42,331 bases of DNA from positions 1 to 42,331 of IMG/VR virus record IMGVR_UViG_3300025138_008739, one strand, 5' to 3'. The DNA comes from a virus. Below the pieces are notes generated by a model. That model did not search any database. It saw only the letters and a list, made by a program, of their open reading frames with translations, and had not been told where the DNA came from. The translations under genes were made by a program, and so were the position numbers. Positions 6,345 to 42,331 of the stretch are shown one piece after another. Positions within the stretch are counted from its first letter, which is position 1, and every line of letters starts with the position of its first letter.

Positions 6345-9300
6345 ATGACAAATTTTAAAAATTTCGTAGTTCGAAAAGGACTTGAAGTTACTGAATCTAT
6401 AAAACTTAATGGTAAAACAGTTACAAGTTTAATTGATTCCGCCGGAACAACATCTCTTATTGATTCATCTTATGTACAAGCTAGATCTAGTGGTAATGAT
6501 TCAGCAACCACAATTGCTTTAATCGATTCATCTTATGTACAAGCTCGATCTAGTGGTAATGATTCAGCAACCACAATTGCTTTAATCGATTCATCTTATG
6601 TTCAGACAAGACAAGTTGATCCAGTTTCAGCATTCACTACTATATCAGTTACTGGTCAAACAGATATTGTTGCAGACGGAGATGGAGCAAGTCCAATTTG
6701 GTCTCAATCAAATCAACAAACAAAACTAGTTGCTTCAGATGGAGCTACGCAACATTACTTTGGCCAAGAAATTGCAGTATCTCAAGATGGAAATACAGCT
6801 ATTATAAGTGCAGAGCAAGAAAATACTACTGCTACTAAATCAGGTGCTATATATGTATTTGTAAGATCTGGTTCAACATGGACACAACAAGCTAAATTGA
6901 AAGCTAGTGATCCAGGAACTGAAAATAACTTAGGAAGATCTCTAGATATTTCAGATGATGGAAATACAGTTGTTGCTGGAGCTCCATTTAATGGTAACAC
7001 AAGCGCCCAGAGCAATATTGGTGCTATATATGTTTGGACAAGAAGTGGATCTACATGGTCAAGCGCAACAAAAATAAGAGGATCAGATACTACAACTTCG
7101 AATTTGTTTGGATTTGGATCTTCAATATCAGGCGATGGTTTGACAATTGCTGTAGGAGCTACGAGTGTTAAAAAAGGTTATATATTTGTATATTCAGGAG
7201 GAAGTTGGTCACAACAAGCTGCGATAGCCAATCCAACCGGTACTACACTCAACTCTGATTTTGGTAACAAATGTGCTTTATCACAAGATGGTAATACTAT
7301 GGTTATGACAGCACGTCATGATCATGGTGCGTTAGTTGATTATGATGGAGCAGCTTATGTTTTTGTAAGATCGGGAACTAGTTGGTCATTGCAACAAAAA
7401 ATACAAGCATCAGTGGCTGAAGAAAGTTTTGCAAAATTTGGGGAGTCGTGTGATATTTCATGGGACGGCAACACTATAGCTATCGGATGTTACAAGTGTG
7501 ATACTAATTCAGGTGCTGTATTTGTATTCACACGATCTGGATCAACGTGGACTCAAGAACAAAAAATCCAACCAACTGATATTGCTCAACAAGATTTATT
7601 TGCAATTACAGTAGGAATAAGCGGTGATGGTAATTCAATTGTAGCAGGATCATACAATGAAGATACCGCATACGGTAATGCAGGAGCTCTATATGCTTTC
7701 TCAAGATCTGGAACCACGTGGTCACAAGAAATTAAATTGTACGCAAGCGATGCTGCCTCTAATGATGAGTTTGGTTATGGCGTAGCTATAGCAAAAGACA
7801 ATGGAACAGTGATTGGTGGTGCTAGATTTGAAGCCGCTAGCGGAGTTAGATCCGGATCAGCATATGTATTCACAGCGCCATTATCAAGTGCTTTACGTGA
7901 TACACTTTCAATTGAAGCTGGTACTGGAATAACTATTACAACTAATGCTACTACTGATACAGTTACAATTGCTGCAGCAGGTTTAGATTCTGCCGGAGCA
8001 ACATCTCTTGTTGATTCATCTTATGTACAAGCTAGACAAACTAAATATACAAATGCGGATTTTACTGATTCAGCTTATGTTACTACACAAATCAATAGTG
8101 TAATAGATGCTGCACCTGGAGCTTTAGATACTTTAAACGAATTAGCAGCTGCACTTGGAGACGATGCAAACTTTAGTACAACGATTACAAATCAAATTGC
8201 AGGTAAATTAGATTCAGCAAGTACGACTGCTCTAGTCGATTCATCTTATGTACAAGCAAGAGTAACAGCTGCTGCTAGTGGTAATGATTCAGCAACCACA
8301 ATCGCTCTTATTGATTCATCTTACGTTCAAACAAGGCAAGTTACTCCTGTTTCATCATTTAATACTATATCGGTTACTGGTCAAACAGATGTTGTGGCAG
8401 ACACAACAGCGGTGAGTTGGCCACTTGCAACAGAACAACAAAGACTTAGGAATACAGATTGGTATGCATCCGATGCTTTTGGTTCACATATGGATATGGC
8501 AGGTAATTATGTAATAGTAGGGGCTCACTATTATGACGAAAGTCCTTATGAAAATAATGGTGCAGCTTTTATATTCTTTAGATCTGGAACTACATGGACT
8601 CAGCAAGCAAAGTTAACAGTTAGCACTAGCGCTCATCAATATCGTATGGGTACTAGTGTTGCACTTAATGCAGATGCAACAGAAGCTATAGTAACTATAA
8701 ACTCTTCAAACGTTTCAGGAGCTTCAGTAACAGTATTTACCAGATCAGGAACAACTTGGACAGAAGGCCAAACAATAGTGTCATCAGGTTTGGCTGGTAG
8801 TGATCCTAAGTGGGGCACTACGGGTAATATAAGTATTAACGGAAACCATTTTATAGTAGGAGCTAAAGACGATATAGGTTCTAGTACCACCACTGATCGT
8901 TGGGGTTCTGCATGGGTGTATTACAAATCTGGATCAACATGGGGATTACAGCAGGAATTAATTGCATCAGATGTTGCGACTGTTGCCGATGCTAATTTTG
9001 GAGCCTATATTAGTATGCCTACTGATTCAATAGTAGCAATTGGAGCACCGGGTTATGACAATTCTAATGGTAGAGTATATATTTTTGAAAGATCTGGATC
9101 AACATGGACAGAAACACATAAGATTTCAGCTCCTGTTGATGCTAGCACTCCAAAAGACTTTGGAGCTGGTGTCGCACTAGACGGCGACTATCTAGCAATA
9201 GGCGCATCAAGAATTAATTCAAACACTGGTAAAGTTTATATTTATAAGAAAGTAAGCGGATCGTGGACTTCTCAAACAAGTGTCACAGCATCTGATGCTG

Positions 9301-12300
9301 CAACTGGAAAATATTTCGGTCAAGGAATACAATTAAAAGGTGATACATTATTAGTAGGAGCTTATGCTGCTAACACTGCTTATGTTTTTACTAGATCCGG
9401 ATCTACGTGGACCGAAGTTAGAAAAATAGTTGGAACCACGTTAAATGGATCAGGATCTACGCCTACTGCAATTGGCGGACAGTTCAGCGATGGTCTCTCA
9501 TTAAATAGTAATACTGCTTTTGATGATTTTATTGTAGGCACCTCGAATCAAGGTGTGTATGTAGTCACAGCAGGACAAAGCGCTTTATATTCAGATACTC
9601 TTACATTTGAAGCTGGTACTGGAATAACTCTTACAACTAATGCTACCACTGATACAGTTACAATTGGTGGAACATTAGCTGGTTTAGATTCTGCTCAAAC
9701 CACTGCTTTAGTCGATTCATCTTATGTACAAGCAAGAGTAACAGCTGCTGCTAGTGGTAATGATTCAGCAACCACAATTAATCTTATTGATTCAGATTAT
9801 GTTCAATCAAGACAAGTTACTCCTGTTCCAGCGTTTACTAAAGTATCAATTGCTGGTCAAGGCGATGTCGTGGCAGATGCAGATGCTGCAACTGGAAACT
9901 GGGCAAGTAGTACACAACAAGTTAAGTTATTAGCATCAGACGCTGCTGCTGGCGATGCTTTAGGTCATTCAGCATCTATAAGTAAAGATGGAACATACGC
10001 AGTAGCTGGAGCATATAACGAAGATATTAATGGAAGCAATTCTGGATCAGCGTATATCTATATAAGATCAGGTACAACATGGACACAACAAGCTAAAATA
10101 GATCCAAGTGATGGACAATCAGATGATTATTTTGGTACTTCAGTTGACATAGATGCTGATGGTGATACTGTAGTAGTTGGAGCAAGGAAAAGTAGTAGTA
10201 ATGCTGGTAACGTATACATCTTTACTAGATCAGGAACTAGTTGGTCTCAACAAGCAAAATTAAGTAGACAAGGGTCGTCACCTAATTCTTTTGGTACTTC
10301 TGTTGGTATCACTGATGATGGTAATACTGTAGTTGTAGGTAGTAGTGGAGGTAGTCCTACTAACTCTGGTTATATGGCAATATATAATAGAGCAGGAACA
10401 AGTTGGGCACATGCACAAACAATAACAGCCTCAGATGCTGCAGCACAAGATTATTTAGGATTAGATGTATCTATATCTGGAGATGGAAATTATGTTGCTG
10501 CAGGCTCAACTGAGGATAACTCAGGTGCTGGTGCCAGTTCAGGCTCTGCATATGTTTTTGTTAAATCAGGTTTCAATATAACTAGTCCAACACATGATGT
10601 TGAAGCTAGGATGACCGGAGGAGGATCTGCTTCTGTAAATGAGTTAGAAGACCCTCATGGTATTGCATTTAACGCTGACGGAACAAAAGCATTTGTAGTT
10701 GGTACTGGTGGTGACACCGGTGATCTAGTTATTCAATATTCATTATCTACTGCTTATGATTTAAATTCTATAACTTTCGATGATGTTCGTTTTAGTGTAG
10801 CTTCTCAAACAACCTATCCATCTGGTATATTTTTTAAACCTGATGGTACTAAAATGTATATATCTTCTTCAACAGATCAAGCATCTGGTACACATGCTGT
10901 TTTTCAATACTCTTTATCAACAGCATTTGATTTATCTACAGCATCATATGATAGTGTATCTATAGATATAAGAGGAGCTAGTGAAGGTGGTGTTAATAGA
11001 GCTTTTTCAATAGCTTTTAAACCTGATGGTACAAAAATGTTTATTGTAAACAAACCTTATCCAGTAGCAGGAGCGGTTTTTGAATATCATTTATCAACAC
11101 CATGGGATATTAGTTCGTTTTCTTATGATTCAAATAAAAGTATTAGTACACAAACAAATGCTCCAGCTGGTATTGCTTTCAATACAGATGGAACACAAAT
11201 GTTTATTAATGCTACGAATAGTTTTATCTTTTTATATAATTTAACTACAGGTTATGATGTTTCAACAGCGTCTTATAGTAATACTAGTATTGAATTATCC
11301 ACAACAGATAATAATACTAGAGGAATTACATTTAACCCTACAGGAACAAAATTATATAGATGTGGTGCTAGTGACGATAGAGTTGATCAATTTTCAACTA
11401 CTTCATTTGCTCAACAAGCTAAGTTAGTGTCATCGGATTCACAAGCTTATGACAAATTTGGATTCTCTATGTCATTAGATATAGATGGAAATACTTTAAT
11501 AGTAGGTGCGCCGGAAGAACGTCCAAACAGTGTAATTAGTGCTGGAAGTTGTTATATCTTTACTAGATCTGGAACTACGTGGTCTCAACAAGCGAAGCTA
11601 GTTAGTTCTATAAATTTCTTAAGAGGCGAATTTGGTCATGGTGTATCAATTTCAGATGATGGTAATATTGCAGTAGGTGTTGCAATAAGATATCAGGTTA
11701 ATAGTGTTGAAGTAGGAAGTGGTTTTGTATTTGAAAGAGTTGGATCAACTTGGACAGAAACTAAACAATTATTAACAAGTGACACGCATGGCGGTAAATT
11801 GGCATACGAACGTAAAGCATTAGAAATATCAGGTAATGGCCTATACTTTATTGCTGGAGTTGAAGGTGCAGATGCTGGAGGTTCTAATGCAGGAGCTGCA
11901 TATGTATGGAATGCGCCGTTAGGATTAATGATACAAGATACTCTTACACTTGAAGCTGGTTCAAATATAACTCTTACAACTACTGCAGGTACTGATACAG
12001 TTACAATTGCTGGATCAGCAGCAGGTTTAGATTCAGCAAGTACGACTGCTTTAACAACTGCTTTAATTGACTCATCTTATGTTCAAGCTAGACAAACTAA
12101 ATATACAAATGCAGATTTTACTGATTCGGCTTATGTTACTACACAAATCAATAGTCTGATTGGTGGTGCACCAGGAACTCTAGACACTTTAAATGAAATA
12201 GCAGCTGCATTAAATGATGATGACTCTGCTTATTCAACTCTTGTAGGTTTAATTAGTGCAAAATCTGATCTCGATTCTTCAGCAGCAATATCTCTTATTG

Positions 12301-13871
12301 ATTCTGATTACGTTCAAGCTAGACAAGAAGCAGCAATTACTCAATCTGCAACAGCACCAGCTAGTCCTTCATCTGGAGACATGTGGTTTGATACAAATGA
12401 TGCTTCTTTACTCGTGTATTATACAGATAGCGACGGCGCGCAATGGGTTGATATATCCGGTTCCACTGGTCCTACAGGCGCTACAGGCGCTGCTGGTCCT
12501 ACAGGTGCGACCGGCACTGTAGCAAATGCTACTCAATCTGATACTGCCCCTTCCAGTCCTGCAGCTGGCGATTTATGGTTTGATACAACCGATGCAACAT
12601 TATTTGTATACTATACGGATAGTGACGGTTCACAATGGGTAACTGTTTCAGGTCCTGCAGGTGCTACAGGTGCTACAGGTGCTGTCGGGCCAGCAGGCGT
12701 CAATTGGCAATCATCTATAATTACTGATTCAGCTGTAAACGTATCTGCAGGTAATGGATATTTTATAGATACAACTAGTAATATAGTAACAGCAAGTTTA
12801 CCTGCTACAGCAAGTGTAGGAAATGCTATAACATTTGTTGATTATGCTAGAAACTGGAATACTAATAATTTTCAAATACATTCTGCTAATGGAACTAAAC
12901 TTCAAGCAGAAACTGATTCCGATACAGCATATACCTTAGATGGGCAGTCATTACAATTAATTTACTCTGGAGACTCGCAAGGGTGGATTCCAATAAGTGA
13001 TGATGCTGTTGCTAAATTAGCAAATACTCCAGCGCCACCCGGTACTTTTGATTTCTTAGTTGTCGGTGGCGGCGGCGGTGGAGGAGGCTGGACTGGTGCC
13101 GGTGCCGGTGCTGGAGGTTATAGAACATCAACACAAACTGTTTCGGCAGTAAATGTTACAATTACAGTTACAGTAGGTGCTGGTGGTACTGCCGGAATTC
13201 ATGGTGGCAGTCAATCAAGAGGCGTTAATGGAGGAGCTTCACAAATATCTGGATCTGGTTTTACTACTATTGCTTCTGCCGGCGGTGGAGGTGGTGGTGG
13301 ATATACTTCAAATAGTAAGGAGACTGGCGCTGATGGGGGATCTGGTGGCGGAGCTGGTCATAGATCTACGTCTCCTGGCTCAGGTAACGTACCAAGCACA
13401 TCTCCAAGTCAAGGTAATGATGGTGGAGATGGCAGTTCACAATCATACAATATGGGAGGAGGCGGTGGCGCTGGAGCAGTAGGTAATGATGGTTATAATA
13501 ATGCATCTGGTGGCGAAGGTGGTATAGGCGTAGCAAACAATATAACAGGCGCATCAGTGTACTATGCTGGCGGAGGATCAGGAGCTTTACAATCTAATAG
13601 AAGTCCTCAAGGATTTAATCCTGCGCCTGCTGGTGGAGGCGGCCGCGGTGGAGCCTATGGAGGTGCAGCAGGTACAGCAGGCACACCAAATACAGGTGGT
13701 GGAGGTGGCGGACACAGAGATGTTAATGGGTATGCAGGTGGATCAGGTATTGTAATTATTAGAGTTCCAACGAGTCAGTATTCCGGAACAACTTCTGGAA
13801 GTCCTACAGTCACCACAAACGGCAATAATACTATTATTAAATTTACAGCTTCAGGGAGTTATACAACATAA
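6345..13871 (+). CDS. Giant mosaic tail fibre/adhesin (2508 aa): propellers, collagen-like and glycine-rich segments
   Basis: This is the largest gene in the window. The N-terminus (about residues 1-90) has LIDSSYVQ.R repeats. Three FG-GAP propeller blocks follow at about residues 119-515, 691-1082 and 1184-1862. They are separated by linkers containing DTL..EAGTGIT and DTVTI, and by a TLNELAAALGDD motif found in many phage tail fibres. The third propeller contains an inserted set of DGTK/YDLST repeats (about 1420-1685). Residues about 2005-2120 have two copies of a SGDMWFDT/YYTDSDG..W unit, each followed by a short collagen-like G-X-Y run. Residues about 2231-2480 are glycine-rich, starting FDFLVVGGGGGGG, a C-terminal type seen in phage adhesins. 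It is probably the main fibre/receptor-binding protein. A chaperone need and the exact site on the virion are unknown. Confidence 0.8.
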   Translation: MTNFKNFVVRKGLEVTESIKLNGKTVTSLIDSAGTTSLIDSSYVQARSSGNDSATTIALIDSSYVQARSSGNDSATTIALIDSSYVQTRQVDPVSAFTTISVTGQTDIVADGDGASPIWSQSNQQTKLVASDGATQHYFGQEIAVSQDGNTAIISAEQENTTATKSGAIYVFVRSGSTWTQQAKLKASDPGTENNLGRSLDISDDGNTVVAGAPFNGNTSAQSNIGAIYVWTRSGSTWSSATKIRGSDTTTSNLFGFGSSISGDGLTIAVGATSVKKGYIFVYSGGSWSQQAAIANPTGTTLNSDFGNKCALSQDGNTMVMTARHDHGALVDYDGAAYVFVRSGTSWSLQQKIQASVAEESFAKFGESCDISWDGNTIAIGCYKCDTNSGAVFVFTRSGSTWTQEQKIQPTDIAQQDLFAITVGISGDGNSIVAGSYNEDTAYGNAGALYAFSRSGTTWSQEIKLYASDAASNDEFGYGVAIAKDNGTVIGGARFEAASGVRSGSAYVFTAPLSSALRDTLSIEAGTGITITTNATTDTVTIAAAGLDSAGATSLVDSSYVQARQTKYTNADFTDSAYVTTQINSVIDAAPGALDTLNELAAALGDDANFSTTITNQIAGKLDSASTTALVDSSYVQARVTAAASGNDSATTIALIDSSYVQTRQVTPVSSFNTISVTGQTDVVADTTAVSWPLATEQQRLRNTDWYASDAFGSHMDMAGNYVIVGAHYYDESPYENNGAAFIFFRSGTTWTQQAKLTVSTSAHQYRMGTSVALNADATEAIVTINSSNVSGASVTVFTRSGTTWTEGQTIVSSGLAGSDPKWGTTGNISINGNHFIVGAKDDIGSSTTTDRWGSAWVYYKSGSTWGLQQELIASDVATVADANFGAYISMPTDSIVAIGAPGYDNSNGRVYIFERSGSTWTETHKISAPVDASTPKDFGAGVALDGDYLAIGASRINSNTGKVYIYKKVSGSWTSQTSVTASDAATGKYFGQGIQLKGDTLLVGAYAANTAYVFTRSGSTWTEVRKIVGTTLNGSGSTPTAIGGQFSDGLSLNSNTAFDDFIVGTSNQGVYVVTAGQSALYSDTLTFEAGTGITLTTNATTDTVTIGGTLAGLDSAQTTALVDSSYVQARVTAAASGNDSATTINLIDSDYVQSRQVTPVPAFTKVSIAGQGDVVADADAATGNWASSTQQVKLLASDAAAGDALGHSASISKDGTYAVAGAYNEDINGSNSGSAYIYIRSGTTWTQQAKIDPSDGQSDDYFGTSVDIDADGDTVVVGARKSSSNAGNVYIFTRSGTSWSQQAKLSRQGSSPNSFGTSVGITDDGNTVVVGSSGGSPTNSGYMAIYNRAGTSWAHAQTITASDAAAQDYLGLDVSISGDGNYVAAGSTEDNSGAGASSGSAYVFVKSGFNITSPTHDVEARMTGGGSASVNELEDPHGIAFNADGTKAFVVGTGGDTGDLVIQYSLSTAYDLNSITFDDVRFSVASQTTYPSGIFFKPDGTKMYISSSTDQASGTHAVFQYSLSTAFDLSTASYDSVSIDIRGASEGGVNRAFSIAFKPDGTKMFIVNKPYPVAGAVFEYHLSTPWDISSFSYDSNKSISTQTNAPAGIAFNTDGTQMFINATNSFIFLYNLTTGYDVSTASYSNTSIELSTTDNNTRGITFNPTGTKLYRCGASDDRVDQFSTTSFAQQAKLVSSDSQAYDKFGFSMSLDIDGNTLIVGAPEERPNSVISAGSCYIFTRSGTTWSQQAKLVSSINFLRGEFGHGVSISDDGNIAVGVAIRYQVNSVEVGSGFVFERVGSTWTETKQLLTSDTHGGKLAYERKALEISGNGLYFIAGVEGADAGGSNAGAAYVWNAPLGLMIQDTLTLEAGSNITLTTTAGTDTVTIAGSAAGLDSASTTALTTALIDSSYVQARQTKYTNADFTDSAYVTTQINSLIGGAPGTLDTLNEIAAALNDDDSAYSTLVGLISAKSDLDSSAAISLIDSDYVQARQEAAITQSATAPASPSSGDMWFDTNDASLLVYYTDSDGAQWVDISGSTGPTGATGAAGPTGATGTVANATQSDTAPSSPAAGDLWFDTTDATLFVYYTDSDGSQWVTVSGPAGATGATGAVGPAGVNWQSSIITDSAVNVSAGNGYFIDTTSNIVTASLPATASVGNAITFVDYARNWNTNNFQIHSANGTKLQAETDSDTAYTLDGQSLQLIYSGDSQGWIPISDDAVAKLANTPAPPGTFDFLVVGGGGGGGGWTGAGAGAGGYRTSTQTVSAVNVTITVTVGAGGTAGIHGGSQSRGVNGGASQISGSGFTTIASAGGGGGGGYTSNSKETGADGGSGGGAGHRSTSPGSGNVPSTSPSQGNDGGDGSSQSYNMGGGGGAGAVGNDGYNNASGGEGGIGVANNITGASVYYAGGGSGALQSNRSPQGFNPAPAGGGGRGGAYGGAAGTAGTPNTGGGGGGHRDVNGYAGGSGIVIIRVPTSQYSGTTSGSPTVTTNGNNTIIKFTASGSYTT
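6484..6609 (+). repeat. 63-bp in-frame tandem duplication (two units)
   Basis: Units start at 6484 and 6547 with a 63-bp period and are nearly identical. Each encodes 21 residues containing SSGNDSATTIALIDSSYVQ. The same peptide recurs later in the gene near 8275 and 9755 as a linker between propellers. Slippage or recombination here would change stalk length without breaking the frame. Confidence 0.9.
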
Positions 13872-39725: not shown

Positions 39726-39783
39726 AAAGAAAAATTTGGACCTACTGGTTTAAATTAGAAATTAAGATACTATATATATTATA

Positions 39784-39836
39784 GAGGCGCCGATAACCGG
39801 GTCTCGTACAACCTTGCTAGTCAATAGGAGGCAATT
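39784..39836 (+). promoter_or_regulatory. Predicted ROSE-type RNA thermometer in the hsp20 leader
   Basis: Two hairpins precede the hsp20 ATG. The first pairs GAGGC (39784-39788) with GTCTC (39801-39805) and CCG (39790-39792) with CGG (39798-39800), with a bulged G. The second pairs CCTTGCT (39812-39818) with AGGAGG (39826-39831): C-G, C-G, U-A, U-G, bulged G816, C-G, U-A, with a 7-base loop. The Shine-Dalgarno AGGAGG is fully inside the stem, 5 bases from the ATG. This is the known ROSE architecture (anti-SD UUGCU with a bulged G) of alphaproteobacterial and gamma small-heat-shock genes. No biochemical evidence exists here. Confidence 0.8.
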
Positions 39837-40247
39837 ATGACTAAGAACTTTATTTACCCAAGAAACGCTTTCTTGGGATTCGATCACATTTTCGACCAGC
39901 TAGAAAATATTCATAGCCACGCGAAAGATACGTACCCACCATATAATGTAGTCAAACACGACAATATGAAATATGAAATAGAAATGGCTGTAGCCGGATT
40001 TAAAAAAGACCATATCGATATTGAAGTAAAAGACCACGTTATGAACATTATTGGTAATAGACCTAAGCGTAGAGAACAAGACGCATATGTCCATAAAGGT
40101 ATTAGTGCTCGAAAGTTTTCAAGATCATTTAGACTGTCCGAATATACGGAAGTAGACGGTGCAGACATTCAGGACGGCATACTATCTGTTCAATTAAAGG
40201 TAGTCCTACCAGAAGAGAAGCGACCTCGGAAAATTAAAATTAATTAA
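39837..40247 (+). CDS. Small heat shock protein Hsp20 (IbpA-like)
   Basis: This 136-residue small heat-shock protein has the alpha-crystallin domain at about residues 37-124 and a C-terminal I-X-I motif (KIKIN). YPPYNVVKHDNMKYEIEM, AVAGFKKDHIDIEVKD, ISARKFSRSFRL and GADIQDGILSVQL are the IbpA-type motifs of proteobacteria. It holds unfolding proteins and could protect capsid or replication proteins during infection. Phage-borne Hsp20 genes are known in marine myoviruses. Its leader appears to be a ROSE thermometer (see findings), so expression may rise with temperature. It has no signal peptide. Confidence 0.93.
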   Translation: MTKNFIYPRNAFLGFDHIFDQLENIHSHAKDTYPPYNVVKHDNMKYEIEMAVAGFKKDHIDIEVKDHVMNIIGNRPKRREQDAYVHKGISARKFSRSFRLSEYTEVDGADIQDGILSVQLKVVLPEEKRPRKIKIN

Positions 40248-40260
40248 CGAGGAAAATTAA

Positions 40261-40491
40261 ATGACAACTTTAACTACAACATATAATGTCACATGTCAAA
40301 TATGTGAATACGTTACTAACGCAATTAAAAATACTGTCCAATCTATGATAAAAAACAGACAATTGGCAGCAAATGCGGAAGTTGCTAGACAACTACAACA
40401 ACTTGGATTCTACGGAAGAGATGATGATTTAAAGCATATTATTATGCAATTAAATGATAGAACTTCTAAAGAATATGAAAAAAGATCTTAA
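40261..40491 (+). CDS. Small hypothetical protein downstream of hsp20
   Basis: This is a 76-residue protein 13 bases after hsp20, with an ACGAGGAAA ribosome site. CQICEYVTNAIKNTVQS has two closely spaced Cys residues, followed by a helical stretch (RQLAANAEVARQLQQLGFYG) and a charged C-terminus. No family was recognised. It is co-transcribed with hsp20 and ends at the terminator at 40514. A chaperone-linked role cannot be claimed from the sequence alone. Confidence 0.55.
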   Translation: MTTLTTTYNVTCQICEYVTNAIKNTVQSMIKNRQLAANAEVARQLQQLGFYGRDDDLKHIIMQLNDRTSKEYEKRS

Positions 40492-40513
40492 TGTAGTTTA
40501 ACTATATGGATTA

Positions 40514-40536
40514 GGCGGGCACTGCCCGCCTTTTTT
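40514..40536 (+). terminator. Rho-independent terminator
   Basis: GGCGGGC (40514-40520) pairs with GCCCGCC (40524-40530) around a three-base loop, followed by six T residues. It ends the hsp20 operon and is directly followed by the late promoter at 40539. Confidence 0.93.
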
Positions 40537-40538
40537 AT

Positions 40539-40546
40539 TATAAATA
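40539..40546 (+). promoter_or_regulatory. T4-type late promoter (TATAAATA) for lysozyme
   Basis: TATAAATA starts three bases after the T-run of the terminator. The predicted start is near 40552, with a good ribosome site AAGGAGA before the lysozyme ATG. Late lysozyme expression fits a lysis role. Confidence 0.75.
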
Positions 40547-41952: not shown

Positions 41953-42331
41953 ATGAATACGAAGACAATCGCGGCAGTGGCGACACTGGCATTTTTGTTT
42001 TGTTTTTCGGCATTTGCTGATAAAACAAAAGTAGGTTTTATCTATATTGGCCCAACAGGCGATCATGGATGGACTTATAGACATGATATTGGAAGACAAG
42101 ATGTCGAAAAACATTTTGGTGATAAAGTTGAAACGACTTTTATAGAAAGTGTGAAATATGGACCTGATGCTGAAAGAGCAATCAGAGCTATGGCAAAAGA
42201 CGGCATGGATATTATATTTGCTACTTCATTTGGTTACATGGAACCAATGTTGAAAGTTGCTAAAGAATTTCCAAATATTAAGTTTGAGCATGCTACTGGT
42301 TATAAGACTAATGATAATATGTCAGTTTATT
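41953..42331 (+). CDS. BMP-family (nucleoside-type) ABC transporter substrate-binding protein, 3' truncated by window edge
   Basis: The ATG follows AGGAGATTATA, a strong ribosome site, 12 bases after the HAD gene stop. The first 21 residues form a type-I signal peptide (short basic start, IAAVATLAFLFCFSAFA core, likely cut after AFA). The mature part begins DKTKVGFIYIGPTGDHGWTY, with RHDIGRQDVEKHFG and MDIIFATSFGY. These are the typical motifs of the BMP/PnrA/Med family (PF02608 type), whose studied members bind purine nucleosides. It would be exported to the host periplasm. The frame is open for 126 codons to the window end. No transporter ATPase or permease is in view, so it would depend on the host permease. 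The first codons are GC-richer than the neighbours. Confidence 0.85.
   Translation, partial: MNTKTIAAVATLAFLFCFSAFADKTKVGFIYIGPTGDHGWTYRHDIGRQDVEKHFGDKVETTFIESVKYGPDAERAIRAMAKDGMDIIFATSFGYMEPMLKVAKEFPNIKFEHATGYKTNDNMSVY

Follow-up and report, generated by a model that had tools for sequence, protein, structure and literature searches.

A ROSE-like leader upstream of hsp20 in a T4-like phage, its relatives and other phages

Described thermometers and the phage hsp20 leader

The closest described counterparts of the leader analysed here are the ibpA thermometers of Pseudomonas, in which the Shine-Dalgarno sequence (SD) is sequestered in a weak hairpin and relieved by warming, as demonstrated with probing and reporters (PMC3669281). 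In the literature, a ROSE-like element is defined by two to four hairpins within the 5' UTR preceding a small heat-shock ORF, with the SD in the 3'-proximal hairpin and exposed when heated. In E. coli, IbpA represses its own translation via the ibpA 5' UTR, for which R93, R97/K98 and Y34 are needed (PMC10474464). RNA thermometers have also been reported in phages, namely lambda cIII, SP-beta blyA and a Caudoviricetes sigma70 gene, the 2024 paper counting two earlier cases and adding one (PMC11182007). Like these elements, the hsp20 leader would be an RNA thermometer carried by phages; as opposed to them, it is of the ROSE type and occurs in hundreds of phage contigs, whereas blyA and sigma70 are fourU elements and none of the three stands before a chaperone gene. 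A full-text search restricted to open-licence papers did not turn up any previously described phage ROSE element, and the two cyanophage sHSP papers searched mention neither a thermometer nor an untranslated region. The gene itself, hsp20, belongs to the core genes of T4-like cyanophages (PMC3037559).

The window, that is, the whole 42,331-nt stretch of IMG/VR record IMGVR_UViG_3300025138_008739, carries the genes of a marine T4-like myovirus (gp20 portal, tail sheath, gp45 clamp), and its hsp20 is preceded by gp44, glutaredoxin, phosphoribosyltransferase, gp62 and regA. As in the Pseudomonas ibpA thermometers (PMC3669281), the leader is about 60 nt long and consists of a stable hairpin I and a hairpin II, in which the SD faces a U(U/C)GCU strand with a bulged G, with an sHSP gene on its 3' side; the difference is that it belongs to a phage gene, lies behind a T4-type late promoter box and has a predicted temperature response. 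With E. coli ibpA/ibpB it shares the U(U/C)GCU leader on an IbpA-type sHSP, and R93 and Y34 are kept in the window clade, but the model similarity is weak (15.7 and 13.7 bits) and K98 is not kept.

No Rfam family matched within the window at gathering thresholds. The only Rfam match in the leader was ROSE_3 (RF02523), full length over 39781-39842 with 20.6 bits and an E-value of 0.04, below the gathering cut-off of 43, and the leader is for this reason filed as ROSE-like rather than as a member of RF02523. The best phage relative tested reached 39.9 bits. The likeness to ROSE_3 lies in the form of hairpin I (GAUGCCGA...UCGGGUC) and in the anti-SD hairpin. The comparison with the Rfam ROSE families, proposed in an earlier reading made from the letters only, bore out the end-to-end resemblance but not a score above the curated cut-off. 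Overall, this is a real ROSE-like leader, of a kind already known, in a phage setting that is unexpected and very wide.

Anatomy of the leader and its transcription unit

The features of the hsp20 unit are listed in Table 1. Folding 39784-39836 alone gave a minimum free energy structure of exactly hairpins I and II at -15.6 kcal/mol; together with direct reading, this confirmed to the base the hairpin coordinates, the SD/anti-SD pairing and both bulged Gs of the sequence-only reading. Hairpin I is closed by G39784-C39805. The SD helix of hairpin II has six pairs (C39812-G39831, C39813-G39830, U39814-A39829, U39815.G39828, C39817-G39827 and U39818-A39826), one of them a U.G wobble, with G39816 bulged. 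The folding energy by itself is weak evidence (z -1.59), since 12 of 200 dinucleotide shuffles folded equally well. The features expected of a ROSE-like element are found together: a U(U/C)GCU anti-SD on the SD with a predicted bulged G, two hairpins with the SD in the 3'-proximal one, and a position 5' of a small heat-shock ORF (39837) with the late promoter box farther upstream. Regarding structure alone, the leader is almost certainly a two-hairpin, SD-sequestering element of the ROSE-like kind. A fourU thermometer was also considered and rejected, the strand opposite the SD being CCUUGCU rather than UUUU facing AGGA.

Table 1. Features of the hsp20 leader and transcription unit in the window
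Feature	Position	Strand	Evidence
T4-type late promoter box, TATATATA variant of TATAAATA	39771..39778	+	like 8 intergenic TATAAATA boxes in the window
Whole ROSE-like leader as matched by covariance models	39777..39842	+	R1, R2; Rfam ROSE_3 over 39781-39842
Hairpin I, bulged G39789 (GAGGC(G)CCG / CGGGUCUC)	39784..39805	+	minimum free energy fold; two-sided changes in 8/10 pairs
Anti-SD strand CCUUGCU with U(U/C)GCU motif, bulged G39816	39812..39818	+	UUGCU in 45/45 aligned leaders
SD AGGAGG, 3' strand of hairpin II	39826..39831	+	paired with 39812-39818
hsp20, IbpA-like small heat-shock protein, 136 aa	39837..40247	+	Pfam HSP20 E 7.1e-20; phrog_432 Hsp20 E 7.4e-40
76-aa ORF between hsp20 and terminator	40261..40491	+	
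Intrinsic terminator ending the hsp20 unit (hsp20 + 76-aa ORF)	40513..40531	+	8-pair GC-rich stem, then T run

The intergenic TATAAATA boxes of the window lie 13-66 nt 5' of genes, and several relatives have TATAAATA at the place of the TATATATA box of the window leader. In 107 of 122 orthologous leaders, 8-10 nt separate the end of a TATA-type box from the Y of the hairpin I YGC; in comparison, about 10% of random 60-nt stretches contain such a box. The pelagiphages HTVC115P and HTVC103P have TTGACA-17 nt-TATAAT at the corresponding place instead. T4 promoter geometry places the transcription start for the window's box near 39784, and from this we infer that the hsp20 transcript would begin at about that position, the foot of hairpin I. 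A start downstream of 39812 had been named as an observation that would speak against the thermometer; judged by the promoter box, the probable start is upstream of the whole element.

In T4, the lysozyme gene is preceded by a hairpin that silences read-through early transcripts, and the late transcripts start inside this hairpin. A similar arrangement, in which hsp20 would be kept silent on early transcripts and late transcripts would escape, could be imagined for a gene that follows the early replication cluster gp44-gp62-regA with its own late-type promoter. However, the late box lies upstream of both hairpins instead of inside the SD hairpin, so that late transcripts carry the whole element, and the 8-10 nt spacing is fixed in most relatives, which makes this type of silencing very improbable here.

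The 76-aa ORF had no match in Pfam or PHROG and probably shares the transcript with hsp20; the next late promoter after the terminator is a TATAAATA at 40539. Two other ORFs of the window deserve mention. At 41953-42331, an ORF left incomplete by the record end seems to encode a signal peptide; its Pfam match is to the Bmp/PnrA-like ABC transporter substrate-binding family (PF02608, E 1.5e-15), an unusual find in a T4-like phage. The 2508-aa protein encoded at 6345-13871 combines a glycine-rich domain with 15 matches to FG-GAP repeats and is probably a tail fibre or adhesin.

Conservation, covariation and detection by RNA models

The hsp20 loci were gathered by protein similarity, blind to their leaders. 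Of 192 unique phage hsp20 leaders, 187 had the loose arrangement YYGC...GGA, against 97 of 592 leaders that bear an SD and precede other ORFs on the same contigs. The five apparent exceptions comprise one divergent anti-SD (L114) and four leaders of a single variant type (L270/L299-like). Two loci that pass this loose count, L273 and L282, have the element in front of a small ORF that precedes hsp20 in the operon, and not directly before hsp20. The control leaders illustrate how common short YYGC...GGA matches are, and complementarity without function might be proposed on that ground; the covariation, the independent model match and the linkage to hsp20 described below refute it, and its probability is negligible.

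When 45 diverse leaders were aligned with MAFFT, UUGCU was invariant. For the two-helix structure, 85.6% of cells in this alignment were paired (73.6% after shuffling), 114 cells had two-sided changes (44 after shuffling), and the covariation score was 0.333 (0.140 after shuffling), with slid controls not exceeding 0.161. The outer pair of hairpin II was UA, CG or AU in 43 of the 45 leaders, and in one leader (L059) the pair above the bulge is A-U, not U-A, with CUUGCAAUA opposite UAUUGGAG. RNAalifold on this alignment returned helix II only; helix I emerged once the structure was given explicitly, and also in the covariance models. For 37 leaders outside the window clade, 96.1% of cells were paired and two-sided changes amounted to 112 against 33, counts that lean towards the structure because this alignment was model-fitted. 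In the same alignment, the bulged G and the adjacent U.G were kept in both hairpins of 36 of the 37 leaders, while neighbouring pairs switched; such constancy amid varying flanking pairs is as expected if the weakness is selected. The cyanophage leaders have UCGCU instead of UUGCU, that is, a C-G pair for the U.G next to the bulge. The covariation that the sequence-only reading had proposed to look for in related leaders is strong and supports both helices.

Two covariance models were used. R1, built from phage leaders with the window in its seed, gave 58.8 bits on the window leader. R2 was built without the window clade, on an alignment fitted with R1, whose seed included the window; it matched 39777-39842 with 49.0 bits (E 1.8e-9) as the sole significant match in the 42 kb, the next having an E-value of 4.4. 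In eight of eight phage records of 55-490 kb each, including Pelagibacter phage HTVC115P, Methylophilales phage Melnitz-3, cyanophages and Agrobacterium phage Atu_ph07, the top match was the hsp20 leader. Moreover, two pattern scans of viral contigs based on the RNA only gave 160 readable matches, 141 of them directly 5' of hsp20; the rest lay before a small ORF or extended start followed by hsp20 (5), at contig ends (10) or elsewhere (4). Almost all of the phages examined have a ROSE-type leader on hsp20, across T4-like marine phages, pelagiphages, the Methylophilales phage, cyanophages and the Agrobacterium jumbo phage. As an RNA motif linked to function, it can serve as a marker for phage hsp20 in unannotated contigs, and the cultured phages that have it make the thermometer idea directly testable.

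A phasin-like small ORF with no Pfam family stands between the ROSE-like leader and hsp20 at several loci (L273 684-987, L282 681-840, L514, L538, L556 and L571), and the order of leader, phasin-like ORF and hsp20 in this subset of phages suggests a heat-controlled two-gene unit. On one viral contig (L509, near 2479-2496 on the minus strand), the anti-SD/SD pattern of the hsp20 leaders stands before an ORF assigned to the AhpC/TSA peroxiredoxins (Pfam E 6.1e-6, first 50 residues).

Temperature response, self-repression and origin

We consider it likely that the leader acts as a ROSE-like, SD-sequestering translational switch responding to temperature. In the proposed course of events, late transcription would start at the foot of hairpin I, which would serve as a stable cap and folding guide, and hairpin II would conceal the SD behind a helix weakened by the bulged G beside the U.G wobble. 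Upon warming or heat stress of the infected cell, hairpin II would open and ribosomes would begin Hsp20 synthesis; both this heat-driven opening and its benefit to the phage are what we infer from the element. If functional, such leaders would let marine phages adjust the amount of chaperone to temperature or protein damage, a matter of relevance to infection under warming.

For hairpin II in isolation, the predicted opening is gradual, with the SD 6% unpaired at 25 °C and 16% at 45 °C, and its stability at 25 °C is -6.6 kcal/mol against -6.3 kcal/mol for E. coli ibpA. For the window leader with its first codons, nearest-neighbour calculations (ViennaRNA) predicted that the SD does not clearly melt. 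At least part of this failure is due to the energy model, because the leader of E. coli ibpA, a known thermometer, was also mispredicted. The energy calculations are therefore indecisive as to temperature sensing. In the calculations with the first codons, a competing helix UAGUCA:UGACUA was favoured at all temperatures, concealing the start codon instead of the SD. The complementarity between the hairpin II loop (UAGUCA) and the start region (UGACUA) within 39815-39845 recurs as 5-7 such pairs in 9 of 14 window-clade representatives, and it could form a competing start-codon lock or a pseudoknot.

The lack of a sharp transition in the folding energies would also suit a static attenuator, hairpins that merely fix a low translation rate or protect the 5' end and sense nothing. 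Yet a static hairpin has no reason for a weak point, and the bulged G and U.G are kept while their neighbours covary; the motif is, in addition, tied to hsp20 and not to phage genes at large. A purely static role is hence unlikely.

Sea temperature hardly changes during one infection, which counts against a heat trigger. A different reading, suited to hosts at steady temperature, is that the leader is mainly a putative binding site for Hsp20 itself, whereby free Hsp20 would repress its own synthesis until titrated by misfolded or aggregating proteins late in infection, the trigger being aggregation. It has the E. coli IbpA precedent, acting through the ibpA 5' UTR (PMC10474464), and most of the required residues: the window clade keeps Y34 in 45 of 46 proteins, R93 in 45 of 46 and K/R at 97, and R93 is present in 28 of 28 cyanophage-type and 59 of 59 pelagiphage-type Hsp20s, with Y34 kept in both types. 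On the other hand, the window clade has Ser instead of a basic residue at position 98, and in two sister T4-like clades that share the leader residue 93 is Lys (49 of 51 and 6 of 6), an exchange that abolishes self-repression in E. coli IbpA. The retention of the RNA element where the R93 contact has probably been lost favours an RNA-intrinsic role in those sister clades. By analogy with E. coli, self-repression as the main function is a possibility of some weight, clearly less probable than temperature sensing, and the RNA-intrinsic thermometer may coexist with it. Somewhat more doubtful is its extension to a general role, in which phage hsp20 leaders would be sensors of late-infection proteostasis: free Hsp20 would clamp the weak ROSE hairpin, aggregation of capsid or host proteins would open it, and the chaperone would be made on demand for virion assembly at steady sea temperature.

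As regards origin, the Hsp20 tree placed the window protein in a clade of 39 (SH-aLRT 96), all from phage or phage-derived contigs, with weak deep branches. Two contigs of this clade were binned in MAGs, of Neomarinimicrobiota and Sphingobacteriales (L301, L302); with phage gp62 and regA beside hsp20, they represent phage contamination or prophage rather than bacterial neighbours. The phage Hsp20s appear to form deep clades of their own, and recent capture from a host is not supported by the protein sequences. The sequence-only reading had suggested that the whole hsp20 unit, leader included, came from a host; in view of the 39-protein phage clade this is not supported as a recent event, but gene and leader could plausibly have come together, long ago, from proteobacterial class A sHSPs. 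The protein phylogeny of cyanophage sHSPs agrees with such an ancient class A origin (PMC3827213). In the E. coli ibpAB locus, R2 gave two weak matches, the ibpB and ibpA leaders. The phage-trained R1 matched leaders at 70 of 80 bacterial hsp20 loci, with SAR11 among the best, and ROSE-like leaders are seen at the Pelagibacteraceae hsp20 genes (L317-L380, SAR11 and other marine bacteria), where R1 scores reach 45.8 bits.
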